A stretch of 27,455 nt of DNA from a virus. The first letter of the stretch is position 1; each line of letters opens with the position of its first letter. Positions 7,686-25,627 of the stretch are shown here, piece after piece. A model generated the notes under the pieces. It saw nothing but the letters and a program-made list of their open reading frames with translations. It was not told where the DNA came from and ran no database searches. Location of the stretch: IMG/VR virus record IMGVR_UViG_3300031707_000141, positions 1 through 27,455 of that record. One strand, written 5' to 3'. The position numbers and the translations under genes were made by a program.

Positions 7686-9221
7686 TTATAATTGTGGTGT
7701 TAAATCAAAAGTAAATGAATCTAATTGACCCATTAAGTTAAATTTCATTGAACCAGTAACTGCTCCAGAAGTATTAACTACAACGCTTAGGTTTGTTTTA
7801 AATTCAGTTTCAAGTTCTGCTGAATATTGAAGCACATTATAAGGAAAATCAGTCAAATCTAACCAAAGCTTAATAATATAAGCTCTAATTGATTTTTCGT
7901 TAGCATAAGTTGCTAATGGATTGTTTGGTAAATCTCCGCTAGTTAACCCAGATTGAGCATAAAAACTTTTCATATTTTTGAAAATATACTCTCTGGCAAT
8001 AGTGGCGCAATCAGACTTATTTAATGTTTGATAAGTATAACCATCAGCAGTTGGAGTAGCTTGTTTGTAAGCAGTTGTCCAAAATTTATTAGTAACTGCA
8101 ACAATTCCGCTTTCATCCATGCTTAAAGTTGAACCACCTAAATCACCCAAACCTTCAATTTCAATTAGAGTAAATCCTTTTCCAGTTGCAATCGTGTTAA
8201 GATCATTAAGCTTCATGTTAGCATAAGGCAAGCCAGCAGTGAATAAACCACCTCTGTTATTGTTGCTCATCATGAATGAGCTAATAGAAGCGTTTTCTTT
8301 TAATCTTTGCGCTCTCAAGCCAGCAATATAAGCTGGTAAAACATAATCTAACTCAACAATTTCGCTTCCTTTCCAATCAGAATCATTCACTAATTTTAAA
8401 CAGATATAAGGAGTAATTACTTTTGAAGCTAGTGTTGCAGGAGCTAAAGCTGTTACATGGTTAGCATAAGTATCAGTTTTGCAAACTATACCAACGCCAT
8501 CTAAGATAGCATTTCTAGTATTAAACTTAGCTTCTAAATGAGTTTTTACACTTGCCAAAAAGCATACTGGGAAAATAATATCATATCTTGCAGCATCAAT
8601 TTTAGATAAAATACCAGTCAAGACAGGATCGGTTGCGCCACTTGTAAAAGCTGTTATTGTTGCAGCAACTCCACTTGGCAAAGTTTCAACTTTAATAGAA
8701 ATTCTATTGCCTTCCGTTCCATCATTTTTAGCTGTGAAGGTAACTGTTCCAGTTGTATTTGAAGCTGTTACAGGTGAATTACTATCAGCAGTAATAGCAG
8801 TTACTAAATCAGCACCAATAGTTGTTGCTGTTGAGGCTGTTGTTACTGCAATTGCATATTTGTTTTTAGTGTAAGAACCCACAGTTACATATAAAGTGCC
8901 AGCGACAGGAGTTGAGGCGGTAAAAGCAACTGATCCAGTAGCTTGAACGCCAGAAGCATTATCCGAAACAATAATTGCATCCAATCTTGTGTTAGGGCTT
9001 GCTTGTCTAAAAGCGTCAATCATTAAATGACCAATTGAGCCAGCTCCACAAAGGTCTTTACCCGCATTAAGTCCAGTTCCAATATTTGAAACTAAATTGC
9101 CGCTTGTAAAAGAACCAGCAGATGTTCCTTGAGCTAAAATTAAAGGGATTCTTGCTCCAGCATTAATTTTTTGTAGTGAAGATTGTAAATTAGCTTCTGT
9201 AATAGGATAAGTACCAGCCAT
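7686..9221 (-). CDS. Tail sheath protein (Mu gpL-like)
   Basis: 511-residue contractile sheath subunit. Residues ~20-80 (ARIPLILAQGTS, GKDLCGAGSIGHLMIDAFRQASPNT) match the N-terminal Mu sheath pattern. Residues ~95-195 form the Mu-type inserted beta domain (TASTATTIGADLVTAITADS, then TVTFTAKNDGTEGNRISI). The C-terminal part (DLTDFPYNVLQYSAELETEF...MGQLDSFTFDL) is the conserved interlocking segment. First gene after a two-residue-scale spacing from the small gene at 9224. Its presence makes this a myophage. The internal insertion is rich in Thr/Ala and Ser, as in other sheaths. Confidence 0.9.
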   Translation of the reverse strand: MAGTYPITEANLQSSLQKINAGARIPLILAQGTSAGSFTSGNLVSNIGTGLNAGKDLCGAGSIGHLMIDAFRQASPNTRLDAIIVSDNASGVQATGSVAFTASTPVAGTLYVTVGSYTKNKYAIAVTTASTATTIGADLVTAITADSNSPVTASNTTGTVTFTAKNDGTEGNRISIKVETLPSGVAATITAFTSGATDPVLTGILSKIDAARYDIIFPVCFLASVKTHLEAKFNTRNAILDGVGIVCKTDTYANHVTALAPATLASKVITPYICLKLVNDSDWKGSEIVELDYVLPAYIAGLRAQRLKENASISSFMMSNNNRGGLFTAGLPYANMKLNDLNTIATGKGFTLIEIEGLGDLGGSTLSMDESGIVAVTNKFWTTAYKQATPTADGYTYQTLNKSDCATIAREYIFKNMKSFYAQSGLTSGDLPNNPLATYANEKSIRAYIIKLWLDLTDFPYNVLQYSAELETEFKTNLSVVVNTSGAVTGSMKFNLMGQLDSFTFDLTPQL

Positions 9222-9223
9222 AA

Positions 9224-9424
9224 TTATTCTTTTGATTTAGTTTTAAGTGATGATTTTGTAATAAGTTGGAAGTTAGATTTATTTTCTTCAAATCTAAGTT
9301 GTTCAAACCAAATGGAATCTAGGGGAGTGTTAGCTTCATCTACTTCAATTTCTATTGAAGTTTCTGCTTTATACCATTTTTTCTTGATATAAAAGTCTTT
9401 TAAAAACTTTAATTCTGCTTTCAT
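9224..9424 (-). CDS. Small hypothetical protein at the Mu gp38 position
   Basis: 66 residues, charged, with a Lys-rich N-terminus (KAELKFLKDFYIKKKWYKAE) and a Lys/Ser-rich end. In Mu and relatives a small DUF2635-type protein precedes the sheath gene, and position is the main reason to suggest an equivalent; the sequence itself does not clearly show that family's motif. It is the first gene of the tail operon after the divergent terminase promoter region, two bases before the sheath ATG. Function unknown. Confidence 0.6.
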   Translation of the reverse strand: MKAELKFLKDFYIKKKWYKAETSIEIEVDEANTPLDSIWFEQLRFEENKSNFQLITKSSLKTKSKE

Positions 9425-9441
9425 TTTTTATTTTGTTTAGT

Positions 9442-9471
9442 GTGGTGAACTAAAAATTTGGTAGTGGTGAT
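9442..9471 (-). promoter_or_regulatory. Two TCACCAC motifs upstream of the tail operon
   Basis: GTGGTGA occurs at 9442-9448 and 9464-9470, i.e. TCACCAC twice in the minus sense, 18-46 bases upstream of the ATG at 9424. The outer copy extends to ATCACCACT (9471-9463), the exact inverted partner of 9545-9553 before the terminase gene. The same heptamer precedes the protease and portal genes. It could mark a promoter start region; no protein target is known. Confidence 0.5.
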
Positions 9472-9508
9472 ACCTTGAAAATAATTAAACTTATAAAAAA
9501 ACAAGTTG

Positions 9509-9546
9509 CAATTAATATTAACTGTTATTAACTTTAAGTTAATAAT
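9509..9546 (+). promoter_or_regulatory. Conserved 38-bp block with 21-bp palindrome (copy 1)
   Basis: At 9525-9545 TTATTAACTT and its reverse complement surround a single central T, a perfect 21-bp palindrome. The surrounding 38 bases match 19836-19873 at 33 positions. Both copies sit just upstream of plus-strand genes that lie among minus-strand genes. A dimeric regulator binding site is the simplest reading. The terminase ATG follows 14 bases after the block. Confidence 0.7.
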
Positions 9547-9560
9547 CACCACTTATTAAT

Positions 9561-11039
9561 ATGAACTTAGACCCGAACTTCCTAGCCAAATTAGCACAAG
9601 AAAGTGCAAACGAGACAATCAAAAGCAATTTTAGAGATTACTTTAAGAAATTTGCTTATCCGTTTATTCATCCAAGTTCTCCACTAATTGAGACTTGGAG
9701 TATTGATTTAATGTGTGAATATGCTCAAGCCGTTGCTGATGGTGAAATTGAAAGGCTTATCATAAATATTCCTCCTGGTCTAATGAAGTCCACAATATGG
9801 TCTTCCGCCCTCCCTTCTTATATTCTCGGACGAACTCCTTATGAAAAAATATTTGCTATTTCAAACAAAGAAAATCTTGTAAATAGAAATATCGGTTGGA
9901 CTAAAAGAATTACTGAAACAAAAAGATTCCAAGAGCTTTTCCCAGAATTTAAAGCTGATGATCGAAAAAACACAGAAACACATTTTAGAACCACAATGGG
10001 TGGTGAAATGCAGGGCTTTGCAACAGAAGGAAATATTACAGGTGAGAGAGCAAATTATCTTTTATTTGATGACTACATGTCTTCCACAATGATGCAATCA
10101 GAAGCCACTAAAATTAGGCTTTTGAATAAGTTTGCAGATACATTTGAAAGCCGTGGAAGCGTAGTTAGAAATAGCTTTGTAATAATAGAGCAAAGACTTG
10201 GCGTAAGTGATTTAACTGGCTTCCTTTTAAGAACTAGAGGTAAGGAATATACTCACTTATGTTTGCCAGTAGAGTTTGAGAAAAAACAGTATTTTTATTT
10301 TGGTGATTTTAAGAAAGAAATTAACGAAGGAGACTTGCTTGCCCCAGAATTGCCAAGATTTACAAGAGAGAAAGTTGACGAACTCAAAAACCGAACTGTA
10401 GATACTGAAACAGGAATTGCGAATGGCAAGCAAGTATTCTATACGCAATACATGCAAAAGCCAGTTGCAGAAGGTGGCAACATGGTCGATATGAACTGGT
10501 TTCAAAGATTCGACCTTGAAAACTTGCCTTATATGCAATTTGATTCTGTTTATGTCAGTGCAGATACAGCTCAAAAAGTAAAAGAAATAAATGACCCTTC
10601 TGGGTTTCTCAAATTTGGTGTAAAAGGCACTTCTGTTTATCTTATTGATCGTTATAATCAAAGGGCAATATATCAAGATACAAAGAAAAATCTTCTAATG
10701 TTTGCCTCTAAATTTCCAACAGCAAACTCTATTTTAATTGAAGATGCAAACACTGGTTCATCTTTAATTCAAGAGCTGCCAAAAGAGTGTAGTTTTGGTA
10801 TAGTGCCAATTTCTCATGGGGGAATAAAAAAAGAAATTAGATTTTACAATGCAACTGGCGCAATGGCTAATGGAAATATTTATATTCCAAAACAAGCAAC
10901 TTGGTTATTTGATTTTGAAGATTCTTTAATGCAATTTCCAAATGGCTCTCATGATGAAGACCCAGATTGTCTCGCTCAATTTCTTAGTTGGTTTAAAAAC
11001 AACTCTATTGATTGGGATAAAATGTTTACGGTGTTTTAA
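9561..11039 (+). CDS. terL: Large terminase subunit (DNA packaging ATPase/nuclease)
   Basis: 492-residue motor that cuts and pumps phage DNA into the procapsid through the portal. The ATPase domain shows a Walker A-like PPGLMKST (71-78), Walker B YLLFDD (166-171) and the coupling region FVIIEQRLGVSDLTG (~206-220), equivalent to ViiQtR..eDDltG. The RNase H-like nuclease domain shows D335 in YVSADTAQK, acidic residues in LIEDANTG (E394/D395) and D467/D469 in HDEDPDCLAQF. Length is typical. It stands alone on the plus strand, away from the small terminase candidate and portal, and its stop overlaps the stop of the convergent gene by 4 nt. Promoter region shares a palindromic block with the cargo operon. 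Confidence 0.92.
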   Translation: MNLDPNFLAKLAQESANETIKSNFRDYFKKFAYPFIHPSSPLIETWSIDLMCEYAQAVADGEIERLIINIPPGLMKSTIWSSALPSYILGRTPYEKIFAISNKENLVNRNIGWTKRITETKRFQELFPEFKADDRKNTETHFRTTMGGEMQGFATEGNITGERANYLLFDDYMSSTMMQSEATKIRLLNKFADTFESRGSVVRNSFVIIEQRLGVSDLTGFLLRTRGKEYTHLCLPVEFEKKQYFYFGDFKKEINEGDLLAPELPRFTREKVDELKNRTVDTETGIANGKQVFYTQYMQKPVAEGGNMVDMNWFQRFDLENLPYMQFDSVYVSADTAQKVKEINDPSGFLKFGVKGTSVYLIDRYNQRAIYQDTKKNLLMFASKFPTANSILIEDANTGSSLIQELPKECSFGIVPISHGGIKKEIRFYNATGAMANGNIYIPKQATWLFDFEDSLMQFPNGSHDEDPDCLAQFLSWFKNNSIDWDKMFTVF

Positions 11040-12931: not shown

Positions 12932-13242
12932 TACTGCCTCGTGTTTTTTAATCCATTACCATATCTTAAATCTAAGATTGTAATAGTATTCTCATAATAT
13001 TCTCTGTAAACTAAAAAAGCATTAGTTAAATATTCAACTTTAGCTTCTAGGCAATTAATTCTTTCTTTATCGGTTTTTGGATTAATTTGTTTGCAAAGCT
13101 TGTTATATTCTTTTTCTGATTTTGTTTGCAACTTCTCGAAGTGTTGAGCGGCATCAACTGCGTGAGCTGGTTGACAAGAGCTAAAAAATGACATTAAAAA
13201 AGCTATTTGTAAAATTTTTTTTGGTAAAAAGTTTTTAAACAT
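12931..13242 (-). CDS. Secreted small protein, possible spanin-like
   Basis: 103 residues with an N-terminal signal: KNFLPKK, then a hydrophobic core ILQIAFLMSFFSS, then CQPAHA followed by VDAA. Both a type-I site (AHA/V) and a weak lipobox (FSSC) are possible. The mature part is helical and charged (AAQHFEKLQTKSEKEYNKLC..., LEAKVEYLTNAFLVYREYYENTI), a coiled-coil-like character shared by spanins. It overlaps its upstream neighbour by 8 nt and is translationally coupled to the putative holin. A lysis role is suggested only by this company. Confidence 0.55.
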   Translation of the reverse strand: MFKNFLPKKILQIAFLMSFFSSCQPAHAVDAAQHFEKLQTKSEKEYNKLCKQINPKTDKERINCLEAKVEYLTNAFLVYREYYENTITILDLRYGNGLKNTRQ

Positions 13243-13504
13243 TTTTTAATTCAAAATTGCGGTTAGTTCTGTTTTCTGTTAATTCAACTCTAGGAAAATT
13301 ATTTATTGATTCAATTTCAAGCGCAAATCCTGCTATGTAAGGTCTTTTTTGGTTATAATGCACTATTGAATAGCCATATAAACCGTCACACTCAATTATT
13401 TTTAGGAAATCTTCCCACGAAACAATTATCTTTTCATTAGGAAGTAAAGTACCTGCAAACAAAAGAACTTGTTCGTATATTGATTTTGTAAAAATTTTAG
13501 TCAT
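13235..13504 (-). CDS. Hypothetical protein
   Basis: 89 residues, not recognised. Mixed alpha/beta character with WEDFLKIIECDGLYGYSIVHY in the middle and an Asn/Arg-rich end (LTENRTNRNFELKN). It overlaps the secreted protein by 8 nt (ATGTTTAA), so it is part of the same small-gene cluster. The region upstream contains a cloverleaf-like set of inverted repeats (13515-13580). No signal peptide or catalytic motif is visible. Confidence 0.55.
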   Translation of the reverse strand: MTKIFTKSIYEQVLLFAGTLLPNEKIIVSWEDFLKIIECDGLYGYSIVHYNQKRPYIAGFALEIESINNFPRVELTENRTNRNFELKNV

Positions 13505-13514
13505 ATTTTTTAAG

Positions 13515-13580
13515 TTGTAGTTATTTTTTTGTCAATTTTAGATTGAGTATTAACTTATGGTTAATAAAAATAACTTACAA
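13515..13580. repeat. Nested inverted repeats upstream of 13235-13504 gene
   Basis: Outer arms TTGTAGTTATTTTT (13515-13528) and 13566-13580 pair along ~14 bp with one bulge. Inside are two small hairpins: TCAAT/ATTGA (13532-13536, 13542-13546) and TATTAAC/GTTAATA (13548-13554, 13560-13566). The second is a degenerate version of the palindrome found at 9525 and 19853. It may be a terminator/operator for the gene at 13504, or a structured 5' leader. Confidence 0.5.
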
Positions 13581-13583
13581 TAA

Positions 13584-14057
13584 CTATTTTATTTTAGAGT
13601 TTATGGCTTGTCTTATGTTGTTCATAATGTTGCCGCGAGCTAAAGTAATTGGGCGAATAAGGTTGTTTCTTGGGGCAATATAAGCTCCGCTTTCATTTCT
13701 ACCGCCTTTCTCTTGAATAGCCGCATAAGGTGTATTTGCAGAAATTTCTAATCTATTAGTACCAAGTGTTTTCCCTCTAACGCTTCTTGCTAATTCTCCA
13801 GATAAGATTGCAGAGCTTTCTGATCCACTTTTATTTGAGGCTTGATGATTTATATATCTTCTTCTTTTCTTTACAATTATTGGGTAAATTTTGCCTGTTT
13901 TAGGCTTGTTCATCTCATTTTTAATAAGTCCGCCTGTTGTAGTTCCTGCGCTACCTGCAATTTCTATTGAGCTATTTTGCAAGCCCTTTCTAATTCCTTG
14001 TTGAATTATCTTGTCAAGATTAAAAATTGATTTTGGAATTTTAGACTTAACATTCAT
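13584..14057 (-). CDS. Tail completion/neck protein, HK97 gp10-like
   Basis: 157-residue protein of the HK97 gp10 / tail-completion type that acts at the head-tail or tail-terminator junction. Residues ~105-135 carry the characteristic YAAIQEKGG...YIAPRNNLIRP pattern. N-terminus is basic and helical (SKIPKSIFNLDKIIQQGIRKGLQ). It follows the adaptor genes as expected in neck operons. The first 31 nt are duplicated 205 bp upstream, and the 5' leader is an inserted element. Start ATG at 14057 has no strong SD visible because the element now supplies the leader. Confidence 0.75.
   Translation of the reverse strand: MNVKSKIPKSIFNLDKIIQQGIRKGLQNSSIEIAGSAGTTTGGLIKNEMNKPKTGKIYPIIVKKRRRYINHQASNKSGSESSAILSGELARSVRGKTLGTNRLEISANTPYAAIQEKGGRNESGAYIAPRNNLIRPITLARGNIMNNIRQAINSKIK
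14027..14057. repeat. 31-bp direct repeat, copy A (start of neck gene)
   Basis: Identical to 14232-14262. Copy A is precisely the first 31 nt of the 13584-14057 gene (ATG to codon ~10). The copy at 14232-14262 contains the stop of the upstream 98-residue gene. Together they bracket a 174-bp segment, as expected if an element inserted and duplicated a target, or by a slippage/recombination event. Confidence 0.85.
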
Positions 14058-14231
14058 ATTAGTGTCCTTACTTTAATAATTCGCTCTCAATTAGTTTTAC
14101 TATCAACTATTACTAATTTTTATGGCTATAAACTCGGCTGATTAAAGTTGATATGTCGGGTGTTGCTTACCATGCAACTAGGTAAAAGTAAGGACATCCA
14201 CTATTTAACAAATACTAAAATAATAAGCAAC
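14058..14231. mobile_element. 174-bp insertion with structured ends (small element or RNA)
   Basis: This stretch lies between the two 31-bp repeats and has no convincing ORF. It contains TGTCCTTACTTT (14063-14074) and its exact reverse complement (14185-14196), enclosing 110 bp with further stems: TATCAACT/AGTTGATA (14101-14108, 14146-14153) and GTTGC/GCAAC (14162-14166, 14174-14178). Removing it with one repeat copy would join the upstream stop and downstream start in an ATGAATGTTAA overlap. It could be a non-autonomous MITE-like element or a structured RNA. Nothing proves which. Confidence 0.55.
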
Positions 14232-14262
14232 TTGATTTTGGAATTTTAGACTTAACATTCAT
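14232..14262. repeat. 31-bp direct repeat, copy B (end of 98-residue gene)
   Basis: Exact second copy of 14027-14057. It overlaps the 3' end of the gene at 14252-14548, which stops inside the repeat (TAA at 14252-14254 in minus sense). It still contains a complete copy of the neighbouring gene's first ten codons, running into the inserted element. Confidence 0.85.
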
Positions 14263-14548
14263 GCCATTCTTTTTTAAAATTAGGCAATCCCATTTCTTCC
14301 CAATTAGTTGGAGGCTCTGTTGCTTTAAAAATAATTTGATTATTATTTAAACAATTTTTATCTGCACAATTACATTGTTTGTGAAAAGAATAATGTCCTT
14401 TTTTTGTAAAAAGTAAAAAAATTAGATCATTGTTTTTTTGATATTTTTCTTTAAAAAAAGAAGGTGCTTTATTAACAAATAAAATATCACTAAATAATTC
14501 GTTGTTTAATTGGAATTTTTCTCTAAAAAGATTGAGTATGTTAGGCAT
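14252..14548 (-). CDS. Hypothetical Cys-containing protein
   Basis: 98 residues, not recognised. A Cys cluster CNCADKNC lies at ~59-66, preceded by a GHYSFHK segment with two His, and the protein ends WHEC; a small metal site is possible. The N-terminus is helical (NILNLFREKFQLNNELFSDILF). It lies between the head-tail adaptor and the gp10-like gene, starting just after the adaptor stop. The gene is flanked by an 18-bp inverted repeat and stops within a 31-bp direct repeat, so it may be a mobile cassette rather than a virion gene. Confidence 0.55.
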   Translation of the reverse strand: MPNILNLFREKFQLNNELFSDILFVNKAPSFFKEKYQKNNDLIFLLFTKKGHYSFHKQCNCADKNCLNNNQIIFKATEPPTNWEEMGLPNFKKEWHEC

Positions 14549-14549
14549 A

Positions 14550-14945
14550 TTATATTTTAGTATTTGTTAAAGTCGCATCACCTCTAATTGAGCATTTTAA
14601 AAGCGTTAGTTCGCTTCTTCCTTCGTAATCAGGAATTACTTCAACAATTTCATATCTATTGCCAGCATACTCTAAAAGATGGATTTTTGAGGCAGTGATT
14701 GCACCATAACGAATAAAGAAATGGTCAGTAATTTTGCCAATCATATTTACGCCATCAAATATCTCTTCACCACTTACACTTTTTTGTAAAGCCCAAGTTG
14801 CAACAACTAAAGTAAGATTTAGATTTGGATCAACGGCAGTGGTGCTTGTAGCTTGCTTTGTTTTCTTATAAATAGAAACATAGGCTTTCATATCACCTAT
14901 ACAAGCTTTAGCTGGTCTTATTTTAATTCTTGCACAACTTCCCAT
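14550..14945 (-). CDS. Head-tail adaptor/joining protein
   Basis: 131 residues, beta-rich, of the SPP1 gp16 / phage head-tail joining type (stopper). The order connector then adaptor then gp10-like is typical of neck modules. Residues ~18-30 (DMKAYVSIYKKTKQA) match the opening strand, and ATWALQKSVSGEEIFDG with RYGAITASKIHLLEY and RYEIVEVIPDYEGRSELTLLKC match the family's remaining strands. The N-terminal 17 residues before DMKAYV look extra, so a later start is possible. Its last codons form one arm of the 18-bp inverted repeat. Confidence 0.65.
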   Translation of the reverse strand: MGSCARIKIRPAKACIGDMKAYVSIYKKTKQATSTTAVDPNLNLTLVVATWALQKSVSGEEIFDGVNMIGKITDHFFIRYGAITASKIHLLEYAGNRYEIVEVIPDYEGRSELTLLKCSIRGDATLTNTKI

Positions 14946-17384: not shown

Positions 17385-18674
17385 TTATGCTTTAATTTTT
17401 AATATTTTGTAAGCTTCGGTATTTACAACACCGCCACCACTTCTCTTGCGAGCTGAAAACTTAACAGCACCATCTTGAGTATAAGGGTCTCTAAGAATAG
17501 AAACTCCTAATCTATCAACAATAGTGTATGCAGTTCTAATATCGCCGAACATAATTGGTAATTGACCAGCAACAAAGGCAGTAGTTAAACTAGCTTGCAA
17601 CATGTCATCACAGAAAACTACAGGATAGCCTAAAATTGAATAAACAATTTTACCTTCCTTTGGATCTCTAAATGACTCAATAATATATTCGCCAGTTCCT
17701 GTTTTGAGTGTTAAGATTTTTGAAAAGAAAGTTACTCTTGACATCAACCAAGCAGAGTTATTGTGATAAATTGCTTTCAATTTACCAGCTAAATTTAACA
17801 AATCATCACTAGTAACATTAAGTGAGTTTTGTGTTTCAACTTGCTCTACTTTACCATAAACAGTGCCATTAGTGTAAGAAAGCAAACCTTTAGCTTGTCC
17901 AACACCATTACCAGACACAAAAGATGTAGCTTCTGATCTAGCAAATTTGTTAGCTAGTTTTCCGATAACATAAGATTCAATGTTAATAGAGCTATCTTCC
18001 AACATTTTATTAGAAATAAGAGGTTTAGCATAAATTTCTTCTGCTTCAATTCTTACTTTGCTAAAAGTTGTATTAGAGGTTACATTTTTTGTTGCTAGTT
18101 CTGCAACATAAGCTGCTTCAAAATCATCAAAATCAACAATTTGTTCGTAGCTATCAGTAGAAATATTAACTGAAGTAGCTAATGCACGAATTGGTGAAGT
18201 CTCAAATGATTTTTGAATAATAGTAGTTGCCATTTGAGGGCGAACTAAAAAACCACCTTGAGAATCATCGCCTACTTGCAAAGTTTTGATTTCAGAGCTA
18301 TCAAGAAAATTAAGATTCATTGATTTTCTTAGCAATTTTTCAAATGAACTTTGATAAGCGGCAAGTTTTTCAGAGGTGACTTCTTCTTTTTTGCCATAAG
18401 CAAGTAAAGAATTAGAAAATGTCTTAACTTCTAATTCATCAACATCATTTGATTTGCCACCCATATTAGGTCTTGATAAAATAGCTTCACGAGCCTTAGA
18501 TTCTTTTTCAAGATTTTCACGAGCCTTTCTTTCTTCAGCAATTTCGTTTGCTAAAACTGAAGCTTTCTTTTCGTGAGATTCCATAAAAGTGCTAATTTTT
18601 GTAGATAGTTCTACATTATTAGTCTTTACAGCTTCTTCTAAGCCTTTTACCACTTCTAAAAATTTTTGTTCCAT
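17385..18674 (-). CDS. Major capsid protein, HK97 fold
   Basis: 429-residue HK97-type major head protein. Residues ~1-70 form a coiled coil (EERKARENLEKESKAREAIL), the delta/scaffold domain normally cut off by the prohead protease. Residues ~135-165 (VGDDSQGGFLVRPQMATTIIQKSFETSPIRALAT) are the conserved N-arm/E-loop start. The middle region around VVDRLGVSILRDPYTQDGAVKFSARKRSGGGVVNTEAYKILK gives the C-terminal P-domain signature (DP....g.v.....R..ggv......). No crosslinking Lys/Asn pair can be asserted. Immediately downstream of the protease. Confidence 0.92.
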   Translation of the reverse strand: MEQKFLEVVKGLEEAVKTNNVELSTKISTFMESHEKKASVLANEIAEERKARENLEKESKAREAILSRPNMGGKSNDVDELEVKTFSNSLLAYGKKEEVTSEKLAAYQSSFEKLLRKSMNLNFLDSSEIKTLQVGDDSQGGFLVRPQMATTIIQKSFETSPIRALATSVNISTDSYEQIVDFDDFEAAYVAELATKNVTSNTTFSKVRIEAEEIYAKPLISNKMLEDSSINIESYVIGKLANKFARSEATSFVSGNGVGQAKGLLSYTNGTVYGKVEQVETQNSLNVTSDDLLNLAGKLKAIYHNNSAWLMSRVTFFSKILTLKTGTGEYIIESFRDPKEGKIVYSILGYPVVFCDDMLQASLTTAFVAGQLPIMFGDIRTAYTIVDRLGVSILRDPYTQDGAVKFSARKRSGGGVVNTEAYKILKIKA

Positions 18675-18680
18675 AAAGTA

Positions 18681-19781
18681 TTATTTAAAAATTGTTTGGT
18701 TTTGAATTGAAATTAATAAAGTATTAAGTTTTATATTTTGCGTTGCATCTCGCAATGCCTCTATTGTCTCATCGCCTTCAACATCGCATTGAACTTGATT
18801 AGAAAATTCTTTTACTTTTGAAATAAGTGTTTTTGCCTCTTTATTAGAAAAGCCACTTTCTTTCAAAATAGACTCTACTTCTTTAATAGAAGAAACCTCA
18901 TCAAGGCTTTTACCTTTTAAAGGACTTGTTAAAGAAGGGTCATTAAACTCTTTTTCCATCGCAATATATATGTTGTTGATAATTTCTTTGATTTTAGCCT
19001 TATCAGCTTCGGGAATATTAACGCCTTCTCTTGCTCCTTCTAAAACTCCAGCAATAGCAAAAATAGCTCTTGGCACAATATAAGGCTCGCCGTCAATAAT
19101 ATCTATGAAAGGTAATTTGTAGGCATCGAAGAATTTTGAACGACCATTATCAAAATACATAAAGTATCTGTTGTAAGAAGCGGCAGGCTCATTTTCGCTT
19201 TCAGTATATTCTCTTATTCTTTTTTCAGCACTTGAAGAGTCCCATTCATAATTTCTATCAGCGAAAGGAAAGTTAGTTGTTGGATTAACTGTTTTGATTC
19301 CAGTAAGTCTTGCTTTGTCATTCATTGGAAAGGTAACTACTGATCCTTCCATTAATTGAGCTTTATTAATTGCCCTGCATCTTTTACCTTCAACTGTTTT
19401 AAACTTGCAATCATCTGATTTAGTCATATAGCCCATTGAGAAACCAGAAATATCACCATTTTTAAGGTTGGCATATTTTTCAGCAGCGTAAGGAACTAAG
19501 AAGTTGCCAGTTTTTTCATCACGCATTAAGTTAAACTTAGCGTTTTTGAATTTTACACCATAGTTATCAAATTCTATTTGGAATTTACCAATTGGCTTCT
19601 TAGTATCGTGGTCAGCAAGTAGTGGGTAATATTTTCCAACAACCTCTTCTTGAAAGGCTTTTGAATCTAAAATATCATTGCCAAAATCAATATTATTAAA
19701 GGCAGCAACATAGCCTTCAAAAGAGCCATCTTCTTTGAGTTCTTTTATTTCTAATGTAAATTGCTTGTAGCTTAATTCCAT
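18681..19781 (-). CDS. Prohead protease (HK97 S78-like) with extra C-terminal domain
   Basis: 366 residues. Residues 1-165 are the serine protease that matures the procapsid: H58 in LLADHDTKKPIG, S115 in GFSMGY and E145 in EGSVVTFPMN form the expected triad pattern (H, S, and acidic E). Residues ~168-280 are a second domain found next to or fused to such proteases in several phages, with FADRNYEWDSSSAEKRIREY, YKLPFID and PRAIFAIAGVLEGAREGVNIPEADK. The end (280-366) is a charged helical tail. Seven bases separate it from the capsid gene. First gene of a minus-strand operon, with a TCACCAC motif directly before its ATG. Confidence 0.88.
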   Translation of the reverse strand: MELSYKQFTLEIKELKEDGSFEGYVAAFNNIDFGNDILDSKAFQEEVVGKYYPLLADHDTKKPIGKFQIEFDNYGVKFKNAKFNLMRDEKTGNFLVPYAAEKYANLKNGDISGFSMGYMTKSDDCKFKTVEGKRCRAINKAQLMEGSVVTFPMNDKARLTGIKTVNPTTNFPFADRNYEWDSSSAEKRIREYTESENEPAASYNRYFMYFDNGRSKFFDAYKLPFIDIIDGEPYIVPRAIFAIAGVLEGAREGVNIPEADKAKIKEIINNIYIAMEKEFNDPSLTSPLKGKSLDEVSSIKEVESILKESGFSNKEAKTLISKVKEFSNQVQCDVEGDETIEALRDATQNIKLNTLLISIQNQTIFK

Positions 19782-19782
19782 A

Positions 19783-19789
19783 GTGGTGA
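19783..19789 (-). promoter_or_regulatory. TCACCAC motif at protease start
   Basis: GTGGTGA on plus (TCACCAC in minus sense) ends two bases before the ATG at 19781. Upstream in minus sense is TTATTAACCATAA, partly like the palindrome half-site. If this is a transcription start signal the protease mRNA would have almost no leader. The heptamer also lies upstream of the tail, terminase and portal genes. Confidence 0.45.
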
Positions 19790-19835
19790 TTATGGTTAAT
19801 AATATTTTGAATAAATGCTATTGCTTATTAAATAG

Positions 19836-19873
19836 CAATTAATAATAATCTCTATTAACTTTAAGTTAATAAT
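19836..19873 (+). promoter_or_regulatory. Conserved 38-bp block with 19-bp palindrome (copy 2)
   Basis: At 19853-19871 ATTAACTT and its reverse complement flank a central T, extended by T/A on each side to a perfect 19-bp palindrome. The 38-bp region matches 9509-9546 at 33 of 38 positions. The ATG of the first cargo gene follows six bases later. A partial GCTATT/AATAGC hairpin lies just upstream (19817-19836). Confidence 0.7.
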
Positions 19874-19878
19874 TATTT

Positions 19879-20151
19879 ATGCGTGGAACTTCAAAAACAT
19901 ATCAATATTTAATTAGAATAAGAGAATTTTATTCTGATCTAGTTGAGCAAGGAAAAATGAAAGAACCTACAAGAGAATCATTTTTTAAAGATTATCTTGG
20001 TTATGGTAAAACTTATTGGATAAAGCTTTACGAGAAAAATGATTTAAGAAAAGTTTTCTATGTGGTTATAGAACTTTTAGAAGAAATCAAGGATCTACGA
20101 GAAGACAGGGACAATTTAGAAAAACAACTTAATGAATTATTAAAAAAATGA
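19879..20151 (+). CDS. Hypothetical helical protein, first cargo gene
   Basis: 90 residues, entirely helical in look, basic N-terminus (RGTSKTYQYLIRIREFYSDL) and a long charged C-terminal coil (ELLEEIKDLREDRDNLEKQLNELLKK). This is compatible with a small DNA-binding protein that forms dimers, or with a structural coiled coil. Coupled to the lipoprotein gene by an ATGA overlap. Immediately downstream of a conserved palindromic block, so autoregulation is one idea, not shown by the sequence. Confidence 0.6.
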   Translation: MRGTSKTYQYLIRIREFYSDLVEQGKMKEPTRESFFKDYLGYGKTYWIKLYEKNDLRKVFYVVIELLEEIKDLREDRDNLEKQLNELLKK

Positions 20152-20609
20152 AAAAAATTATAATCCTATTACTATTATCGCTTTTAGTCTCTTGTGCATC
20201 AAAACAAGAGTCAGTTATTAAAATTATTGAGCAATCAGGTAAAATTGAAATAACTCTAAAAGGCAAGAAGTGGCAAACAATTAAATCAACTGGTTCTGCG
20301 GCAATTCTTGTTAAAGATGAAGACGGAATTGAACAAGCAATGAATGTTGCAACATTAAGAGCAAAGGCAAATATTGTTGAGTTTTTAAATTCAGAAATTT
20401 CTTCAAATAGAAAAACTGAATCTAGTCTTAACTCCTCTTTGCAAGAAAAACAATTAAATCAAAAAGTATTAGAGACCATTTATCAAGAAGCAAAAGGTAA
20501 TATAAAATACTCTTATGTTGTAGAAAGAGAAATTAAGCAAGACTACGCAAAAGTGGTCGTACTTTTGGATAAGAATGTTTCAGATCTAAGTATAAATTTA
20601 TCTAACTAA
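20148..20609 (+). CDS. LPP20-like lipoprotein
   Basis: 153 residues. Residues 2-16 are a lipoprotein signal (KKIIILLLLSLLVSC) with lipobox L-V-S-C and Cys16 as the acylated residue. The mature part shows an LPP20-like pattern: helix with A-rich repeats (QAMNVATLRAKANIVEFLNSEI), then YSYVVEREIKQDYAKVVVLLDKNV. Likely anchored to the outer membrane of a Gram-negative host. Family is related to Helicobacter Lpp20 by look only. Part of the plus-strand cargo block; a lysogenic conversion (moron) role is inferred from the location and opposite orientation to morphogenesis genes. Confidence 0.68.
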   Translation: MKKIIILLLLSLLVSCASKQESVIKIIEQSGKIEITLKGKKWQTIKSTGSAAILVKDEDGIEQAMNVATLRAKANIVEFLNSEISSNRKTESSLNSSLQEKQLNQKVLETIYQEAKGNIKYSYVVEREIKQDYAKVVVLLDKNVSDLSINLSN

Positions 20610-20611
20610 AA

Positions 20612-21403
20612 ATGTTTATAATATTTCTTCTTTTATTTTCTTTTTCTGCAAATGCCAAAACTGTACAAGCAACTGGTTATGGTAAAGATAAGAAAATTGC
20701 ATTAGAAGACGCAAAAACAAAAGCGGTTGAAATGGTTGCTGGTTCTTGGGTTGATTCTTCTAAAAAATCAGTTAATGGATCAATGCAGCAAGAAATAAAG
20801 CAATTTACAACTGGAGTTGTTGAAAATTACAAAGTTATTAATGAAAATGAAACAAGCATAACAATTGAGGCAAATGTTATAGCCAGAAGGGATAACTCAA
20901 TTGATAGTTCTTCATTTAAAACTAATCCAAGCCAATTAGTTGATTCTTTTCAAAATATTGAGAATGAAAAAAAATCTGGTATGGCATTAGATAGTTTGTA
21001 TAAAGCTATTGAATTTAAGGTAAAATCAATAAAACCGCTTAGAAAAGAAGATGATCTTTTTTATATTAGCGTTATTGGCAAATACTCCTATTCAAAAAAA
21101 TGGCTTAATGATTATGAAGAGTTTTCTAGGCTAAATACAAATTATCAATTTAAAATTTTAGATTGTAGACGAATTATTGCTATTGCTGAATTTGACCTTG
21201 GAGATAAAAAAGAATTTATTGCATCTTATCAGTCTGTTAATGTTCAAAGAGCTTATTTATCAGAGAACCAAGATAACTTATGGATTGGATATAGTGAAAC
21301 AATTGAAACTTTCTACGCTTTACCAAATATTGAAAATATTAAATCGGTCAAAGTTAATTTTGTTTGTGAAAATGAAGATTTAAAACTTTTGCTGAAAAAA
21401 TAA
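20612..21403 (+). CDS. Secreted LPP20/FlgT-N-like protein
   Basis: 263 residues with a clear Sec signal peptide (FIIFLLLFSFSANA, cleavage after ANA). The following segment (TVQATGYGKDKKIALEDAKTKAVEMVAGSWVDSS) has the 'a.G.G..k..A...A...A....g' arrangement of LPP20/FlgT N-terminal-like domains, parallel to its neighbour. Residues ~130-260 are mixed alpha/beta without known motif, with C-terminal Cys at ~249. It begins three bases after the lipoprotein stop. Together they look like a partnered periplasmic/outer-membrane pair; a role in virulence or surface exclusion is not shown. Confidence 0.66.
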   Translation: MFIIFLLLFSFSANAKTVQATGYGKDKKIALEDAKTKAVEMVAGSWVDSSKKSVNGSMQQEIKQFTTGVVENYKVINENETSITIEANVIARRDNSIDSSSFKTNPSQLVDSFQNIENEKKSGMALDSLYKAIEFKVKSIKPLRKEDDLFYISVIGKYSYSKKWLNDYEEFSRLNTNYQFKILDCRRIIAIAEFDLGDKKEFIASYQSVNVQRAYLSENQDNLWIGYSETIETFYALPNIENIKSVKVNFVCENEDLKLLLKK

Positions 21404-25123: not shown

Positions 25124-25627
25124 TTATTTATGGCTTATTTTATAAATTCCATCTTCATACCTTATTTTTACCTCTAATTTCTCCCTTAGCTCTAAAATAT
25201 CCTTCCATTTGCCTTTTCCATAGAATAGAGGGTTAAGATAATAAACACCTCTTCCCTCACGAATAAGTATTTTGCTTTCAGACAATTTGGTAATATATTG
25301 ATTTACAGTATTGAAGGTTTTACCAAGTCTAACGGCAATATCTCTTTTGATGTAGGAGTTGATTATAATCTTATTTCCATAACTCATGCACTTAATTAAT
25401 TCATAAATCAACCCCTCTAAGCCAGAAGGCAGATTTGATAAATAGTTTATGTGCTTAATATAGATTTTGATGTAATCATCCTCACCAGCAATCGAATAGC
25501 TTTGAAAACTCTCTTTTTGGTGAACTTCTCCAAATTCATCAATAAAATTGGTGATTGTTTGGTTTTTAATTCTGCGAGCCATTATATTTTTAAAATTTTG
25601 TAAAGGTTTCCAATTTCTTAACGCCAC
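25124..25627 (-). CDS. RepL-like replication initiator (winged helix)
   Basis: 167 residues from a GTG at 25627; an ATG at 25582 (MARRIKNQTI...) is an equally good start, placed 8 nt after the SerRS-like micro-ORF. Residues ~85-135 give the recognisable RepL pattern: INSYIKRDIAVRLGKTFNTVNQYITKLSESKILIREGRGVYYLNP, then LFYGKGKWKDI. This matches plasmid/phage RepL proteins that open an origin. It precedes the portal gene. An iteron-like region ~600 bp away could be its target. Not proved to be active; also could be a regulator of the same winged-helix fold. Confidence 0.7.
   Translation of the reverse strand: MALRNWKPLQNFKNIMARRIKNQTITNFIDEFGEVHQKESFQSYSIAGEDDYIKIYIKHINYLSNLPSGLEGLIYELIKCMSYGNKIIINSYIKRDIAVRLGKTFNTVNQYITKLSESKILIREGRGVYYLNPLFYGKGKWKDILELREKLEVKIRYEDGIYKISHK

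Follow-up and report, generated by a model that had tools for sequence, protein, structure and literature searches.

Late genes of phages in the P2/P4 group are expressed from weak promoters that carry dyads of the form TGT-N12-ACA and are served by the Ogr and Delta activators, and in the P2-like phage Smp131 a single dyad has been attributed to a pair of divergent promoters, PP' and PO' (PMC3931495). The Mor and C proteins of phage Mu are dimeric activators that act on short inverted repeats above weak middle and late promoters, with the Mor site centred at -43.5 and replacing the -35 element (PMC4390567, PMC4461284). The viral DNA analysed here, a stretch of 27,455 nucleotides that we refer to throughout as the window, contains two 38-bp blocks (9509-9546 and 19836-19873) that are identical at 33 of 38 positions in a pairwise comparison and that hold perfect odd palindromes of 21 bp (9525-9545) and 19 bp (19853-19871), values that reproduce those of a first-pass annotation of the sequence. 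The degenerate dyad that it listed at 13548-13566 is also real and belongs to the same system, but no plus-strand gene lies there. The sites and the genes that flank them are as follows.

9526-9544, no strand: site A, 19-bp dyad TATTAACTTTAAGTTAATA, in the gap between the terminase gene (plus) and the p66-sheath tail operon (minus)
13548-13566, no strand: site B, degenerate dyad TATTAACTTATGGTTAATA, flanked by p157 and p89, both minus
19853-19871, no strand: site C, 19-bp dyad identical to A, between p90 and the cargo genes (plus) and the protease-capsid head operon (minus)
7686-9221, minus: tail sheath (PHROG 165)
9224-9424, minus: p66, which opens the tail operon and is the constant minus-side neighbour of site A
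9561-11039, plus: terminase large subunit (PHROG 38), its ATG 16 nt past dyad A
13235-13504, minus: p89, which opens the variable cassette behind site B
17385-18674, minus: major head protein (PHROG 10)
18681-19781, minus: head maturation protease (PHROG 80), first gene of the head operon
19879-20151, plus: p90, candidate dimeric regulator, its ATG 7 nt past dyad C

A 21-letter pattern with up to three mismatches finds five matches in the window, corresponding to these three sites, two of which match on both strands; the expectation from shuffles is 0.07. Sites matching at least 16 of 19 positions number three in the window, four in G001 (a complete circular relative of 55.5 kb whose ends overlap by 55 nt) and three in G006, compared with 0.05-0.12 per shuffle; all are intergenic in the three sequences, and in the window and G001 every one falls within the late (structural) region.

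Apart from the terminase and the cargo genes the window has no convincing plus-strand unit, as originally described, and each of the two had been named as the partner of its block. Both blocks separate divergent genes, however, so that the minus-strand operons also lie downstream of them, and it is a predicted minus-strand late promoter, rather than the terminase, that is the conserved partner; the plus-strand gene at site A varies. Read in the minus direction, sites A and C show the same order of dyad, 14 nt, TTGC[AT]N, 17 nt, a TTTATT-like box, leader and late gene, and the predicted promoter elements in the window are these.

9506-9511, minus: TTGCAA, the predicted -35 box of the late promoter for the tail operon, separated from dyad A by exactly 14 nt
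9483-9488, minus: predicted -10 box TTAATT of the same promoter, after a 17-nt spacer; predicted transcription start near 9476
19833-19838, minus: TTGCTA, the predicted -35 box of the late promoter for the head operon, separated from dyad C by 14 nt
19810-19815, minus: predicted -10 box TTTATT of the same promoter; predicted transcription start near 19803

The dyad-14-TTGC-17-TT.A.T spacing is kept in 14 of 14 site examples, and TTGC is invariant in all of them, a run of invariance absent from 2,000 shuffles; the centre of the dyad lies near -59 relative to the predicted start. These promoters match the sigma70 consensus at only 7-9 of 12 positions, none having an A at position 2 of the -10 box, and a consensus promoter scan did not call the dyad-linked -10 boxes, which are poor matches in AT-rich DNA. 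Relatives with a sheath about 45% identical have no dyad and carry near-consensus promoters in the equivalent position (TTGACA with TATTTT or TATTAT, 10-11 of 12 positions). The conserved GCAA was also considered as an element of a plus-strand promoter or as an extended -10 element, a reading rejected because the opposite-direction alignment fits better. From the weakness of the dyad promoters, the constancy of the minus-side gene and the near-consensus promoters found where the dyad is missing, we infer that the dyad serves activation of late operons, a reading for which the sequences offer moderate support. TTGC at 14 nt is missing from sites B and D, so this activator geometry does not extend to every dyad.

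The resemblance to P2/P4 lies in the contractile tail, in the recurrence of a dyad of comparable span at several late operons, and in weak promoters; the dyad shared by divergent promoters in Smp131 resembles sites A and C. As in P2, where a hyphenated dyad of about 18 bp precedes each late promoter, the dyad stands upstream of head and tail late promoters (14 of 14 examples), but its half-sites are other, being TAnT-N11-AnTA in this group rather than TGT-N12-ACA, and its position differs too, 14 nt from the -35-like box with a predicted centre at about -59. The Ogr zinc finger (PF04606, CX2CX22CX4C) was found in none of seven related contigs, the circular one included, and the Mor family (PF08765) in none of seven; the arrangement also departs from that of Mor in retaining a separate -35-like TTGC box. 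This suggests a P2-like promoter logic in a phage that is not a member of the Ogr/Delta system.

Among 2.9 million viral contigs in IMG/VR, 24 stretches contain the exact 19-mer, and about 20 of these are relatives of this phage in which the dyad is placed alike, with terminase and p66 on either side of A, p157 and the cassette gene that follows it flanking B, and p90 and the protease flanking C. The other carriers, G011, G014 and G012/G013, are unrelated phages that do not share the structural proteins, and their 19-mers, judged convergent or chance, show that such background occurrences amount to a few loci. G012/G013 is a temperate phage with the exact dyad at 7786 and variants at 2000 and 9970 (G012 positions), located around genes for a CI-like repressor and an integrase, and its dyad is a probable convergent operator. 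Operators of the CI type resemble the present system in having repeated palindromes at several intergenic sites, one of them beside the gene of the candidate regulator itself, and G012/G013 shows the same 19-mer with variants around a CI-like repressor. They differ in that this group has its sites all in the late region and no match to integrase, resolvase or rve transposase (PF00589, PF00239, PF00665) in five related contigs, the circular one included, so that the block on packaging and cargo during lysogeny that had been suggested is unsupported.

More distant relatives, with terminases about 72-85% identical, carry a different 19-bp sequence at these places, and yet the copies within a genome agree at 15-19 of 19 positions. 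Sites A and C match at 19/19 in the window, 19/19 in G009, 18/19 in G003 and 15/19 in G002, whereas identity between lineages is 8-15 of 19 and usually 8-10; the 14-nt spacers beside the dyads agree within a genome far less than the dyads do. The versions concerned are listed here.

G003: site A, TAGTCATAACATACCACTA; site C and a third site, TAGTCATAACATACTACTA, the third copy at 33083 being identical to C
G009: TAGTAGTAATATAATACTT, the same at A and C
G002: site A, TAGTAATAACAAATAACCA; site C, TGGTAATAACAAACTACTA; site B counterpart at 34936, TAGTCATAATAAATAACTA
L039: site C, TTTTATCTTTAAGATAATA

Two pairs of dyad columns covary, 3-17 (T-A to G-C) and 7-13 (C-G to T-A), and there are 20 double-change cells compared with 9.5 in shuffles (0/500) and at most four in slid controls, these being counts of sequences, which overstate the number of independent changes because the lineages are few and many members are close kin. 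Sequence descent alone is insufficient to account for dyads that change in parallel within a genome and by paired substitutions, and a DNA site for a dimer would account for both. The dyad is thus very probably, on these sequence comparisons, the operator of a dimeric regulator encoded by the phage, and the shared dimeric regulator proposed at the outset is well supported, A, B and C changing together in each genome with compensatory changes. A pattern scan for additional lineages returned only G002 and G003, and otherwise chance matches. Profile searches of genome contigs with the terminase and sheath alignments found no relative; among isolate phages there was no terminase above 60% identity (about 30% among the best matches listed) and no p90.

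We consider it slightly favoured over the alternatives taken together that the dyad is bound by a phage-encoded dimeric regulator of late transcription, most likely p90. By analogy with P2, the dyad probably turns on late genes in much the same way through an unrelated protein. A dimer occupying the 19-bp dyads A and C, near -59, would most likely recruit RNA polymerase to the weak tail and head promoters, as P2 Ogr does; the promoter adjoining A would then read p66 and sheath, and that adjoining C the protease and capsid genes. Since only 0-16 nt separate the dyad at A and C from the start codon on the opposite strand (that of terminase, p157 or p90), occupancy of the dyad would also hinder transcription on that side, and if p90 is the regulator, occupancy at C would constitute negative feedback on p90.

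The first-pass annotation had offered the 90-residue protein as one guess at the regulator, and it proves a reasonable candidate that lacks a family assignment. Its model (AlphaFold, AF2; pLDDT 90) is all-helical, with predicted helices 32-40 and 46-52 that resemble a helix-turn-helix, followed by a long helix of 36 residues (54-89) that could be a dimerisation element; Ogr, a zinc finger, is unrelated to this predicted fold. p90 is present at site C in every relative whose C region is in hand except G025, which has the A dyad and no p90 within its 25-kb contig; that contig, which has an unrelated-looking protease, may be incomplete or chimeric, since it carries two sheath genes. G021 encodes a distant p90 homologue divergent to the protease. 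The putative recognition helix varies in step with the dyad, with p90 versions sharing K-T-[YH]-W-[IL]-K-L-Y where the half-sites are TATT or TTTT, and K-[NY]-S-W-K-N-F where they are TAGT. No match to p90 was found in Pfam, PHROG, PDB, Foldseek or viral structure searches, and the match to HTH_69 is weak (E=0.13). p90 is the leading candidate regulator, with moderate support as the protein that binds the dyad.

A different binder is unlikely, though not greatly so. The rivals to p90 are the small terminase, which has a weak HTH match, a host regulator, and the following protein.

25124-25582, minus: RepL-like winged-helix protein, near the portal gene (PF05732, E=8.6e-9)

The RepL-like protein is a genuine member of a winged-helix family and is nearly invariant (91-99% identical) across the dyad-bearing contigs, but G002 and G003 have no copy of it although their system persists with a different dyad sequence, and for this reason we reject it as a general regulator. 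No small terminase is known to act at several promoters, and dyads that are specific to each genome are not expected from a host factor. CtrA boxes of alphaproteobacteria have the form TTAA-N7-TTAA, which is included in the window dyad; this match is not conserved, being absent from G002, G003, G004, G009 and L039, and relatives have TAGT-N11-ACTA in its place.

A little less likely again is a role for the dyad as an operator at which the terminase and p90/cargo genes are repressed, with p90 or another repressor bound ahead of the start codon and the minus-strand promoters as mere neighbours; this comes near to the model of the first-pass annotation. The short gap between the dyad and the plus-side ATG at sites A and C, like the 15-45 nt to the cassette gene at site B, would suit this, the position being typical of autorepression, as would the good sigma70-like plus-strand promoters (TTGACA-16/17-TA...T) that are directed into dyad A in G002, G003 and G009. 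Because such promoters face the dyad, it may serve the plus side also, and transcription in both directions may be subject to regulation. The invariant TTGC and 17-nt spacer, however, fit a minus-strand promoter, and the minus side of site A is always p66 followed by sheath, whereas its plus side is the terminase in most relatives, p157 in G009, or, in G025, a different cassette that includes a p89 relative. Moreover, in G009 and L021 the relocated terminase directly follows a late gene and has no dyad.

It is very unlikely that the dyad acts at the RNA level, as a hairpin in the leaders of terminase and p90, and not as a DNA site. The window version can be folded as RNA, and paired changes would be expected of a stem, but every G003 copy has mismatches at the inner pairs 5-15 and 6-14, which leaves only short stems, and the distance to genes is different at sites B and D, the fixed spacing being to a promoter-like box on the opposite strand. 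There are hairpins of another kind at the late genes, as follows.

9460-9474, minus: RNA hairpin GGUA-UCACCAC-UACC, in the 5' leader of p66
9436-9454, minus: RNA hairpin UUUAGU-UCACCAC-ACUAAA, in the 5' leader of p66
9538-9560, plus: RNA hairpin GUUAAUAA-UCACCAC-UUAUUAAU, ahead of the terminase ATG, its 5' arm being the right arm of dyad A
19778-19795, minus: hairpin CCAUA-AUCACCAC-UAUGG, with the protease start codon inside the stem
25077 (portal), 7700 (p135) and 1207 (baseplate), minus: further occurrences of the CACCAC/UCAYCAC motif in the window

The motif stands a short way ahead of the start codons of late genes and often forms the 7-nt loop of a hairpin; UCAYCAC is a YCAY repeat. Across the window and the collected relatives, all 27 distinct instances with a stem of at least five pairs are on the sense strand within 60 nt upstream of an ORF, and their stems covary strongly. 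Permuted control loops gave 0-1 instances, with the exception of the reverse-complement loop (33 instances, mainly the same hairpins on the other strand, none before a start). The hairpins persist in L142, L145 and L146, in which the region upstream of p66 yielded no dyad element, and an Rfam search gave no match. The UCAYCAC hairpin is possibly a new RNA regulatory element, separate from the dyad.

Use of the dyads as recombination or packaging sites, at which cassettes and the terminase segment are moved or inverted, is marginally more improbable still. The terminase-bearing segment, from A to B or p157, is inverted in L016 (G009), L021 and L127/G025 with junctions near dyads, the latter two being contigs of sample 3300020042, and the genes behind sites B and C vary between relatives. 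After inversion, however, only one junction retains a dyad, the five contigs gave no match to the enzymes named above, and the strict TTGC spacing is left without explanation. Contigs of the same sample, G025 (L227, L228) and G005, combine two unrelated sheath or baseplate modules, which points either to chimeric assembly or to phages that carry two tail modules; G025 has two sheath genes. The cargo genes behind C and B (window 20148-21403; G004 29087-29650) encode small envelope proteins, lipoprotein-like or FlgT_N-like (a weak match), that differ among relatives. A gene behind the extra dyad at 33083 in G003 (32455-32973; also G005 14039-14557) encodes a 172-residue protein with likeness by eye to a proteasome-beta/HslV-type hydrolase, and in the window a 34-bp direct repeat (14024-14057 and 14229-14262, 97% identical, 205 bp apart) spans the start of p157. 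Chance similarity, to which an AT-rich genome and the 19-mer near the repressor and integrase of G012/G013 might point, is refuted by conservation at equivalent places in some 20 relatives, by the shuffles, and by the parallel and compensatory changes.

Returning to late activation through the dyad, we tentatively raise a broader possibility, itself somewhat doubtful, that p90 founds a new family of small late regulators in which one dyad would activate the head and tail operons while limiting p90 and the opposite-strand gene, with the UCAYCAC hairpins as a second layer read by an RNA-binding factor. Little is known of late-gene control in uncultured aquatic myophages, and the site, the promoter geometry and the candidate protein together provide a testable circuit obtained from sequence alone. 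The genome-specific dyads and the diverging p90 versions offer ready pairs of protein and site for work on specificity. A P2-like promoter logic operated by an unrelated regulator is suggested, and the hairpin that accompanies it may be a new RNA regulatory motif.
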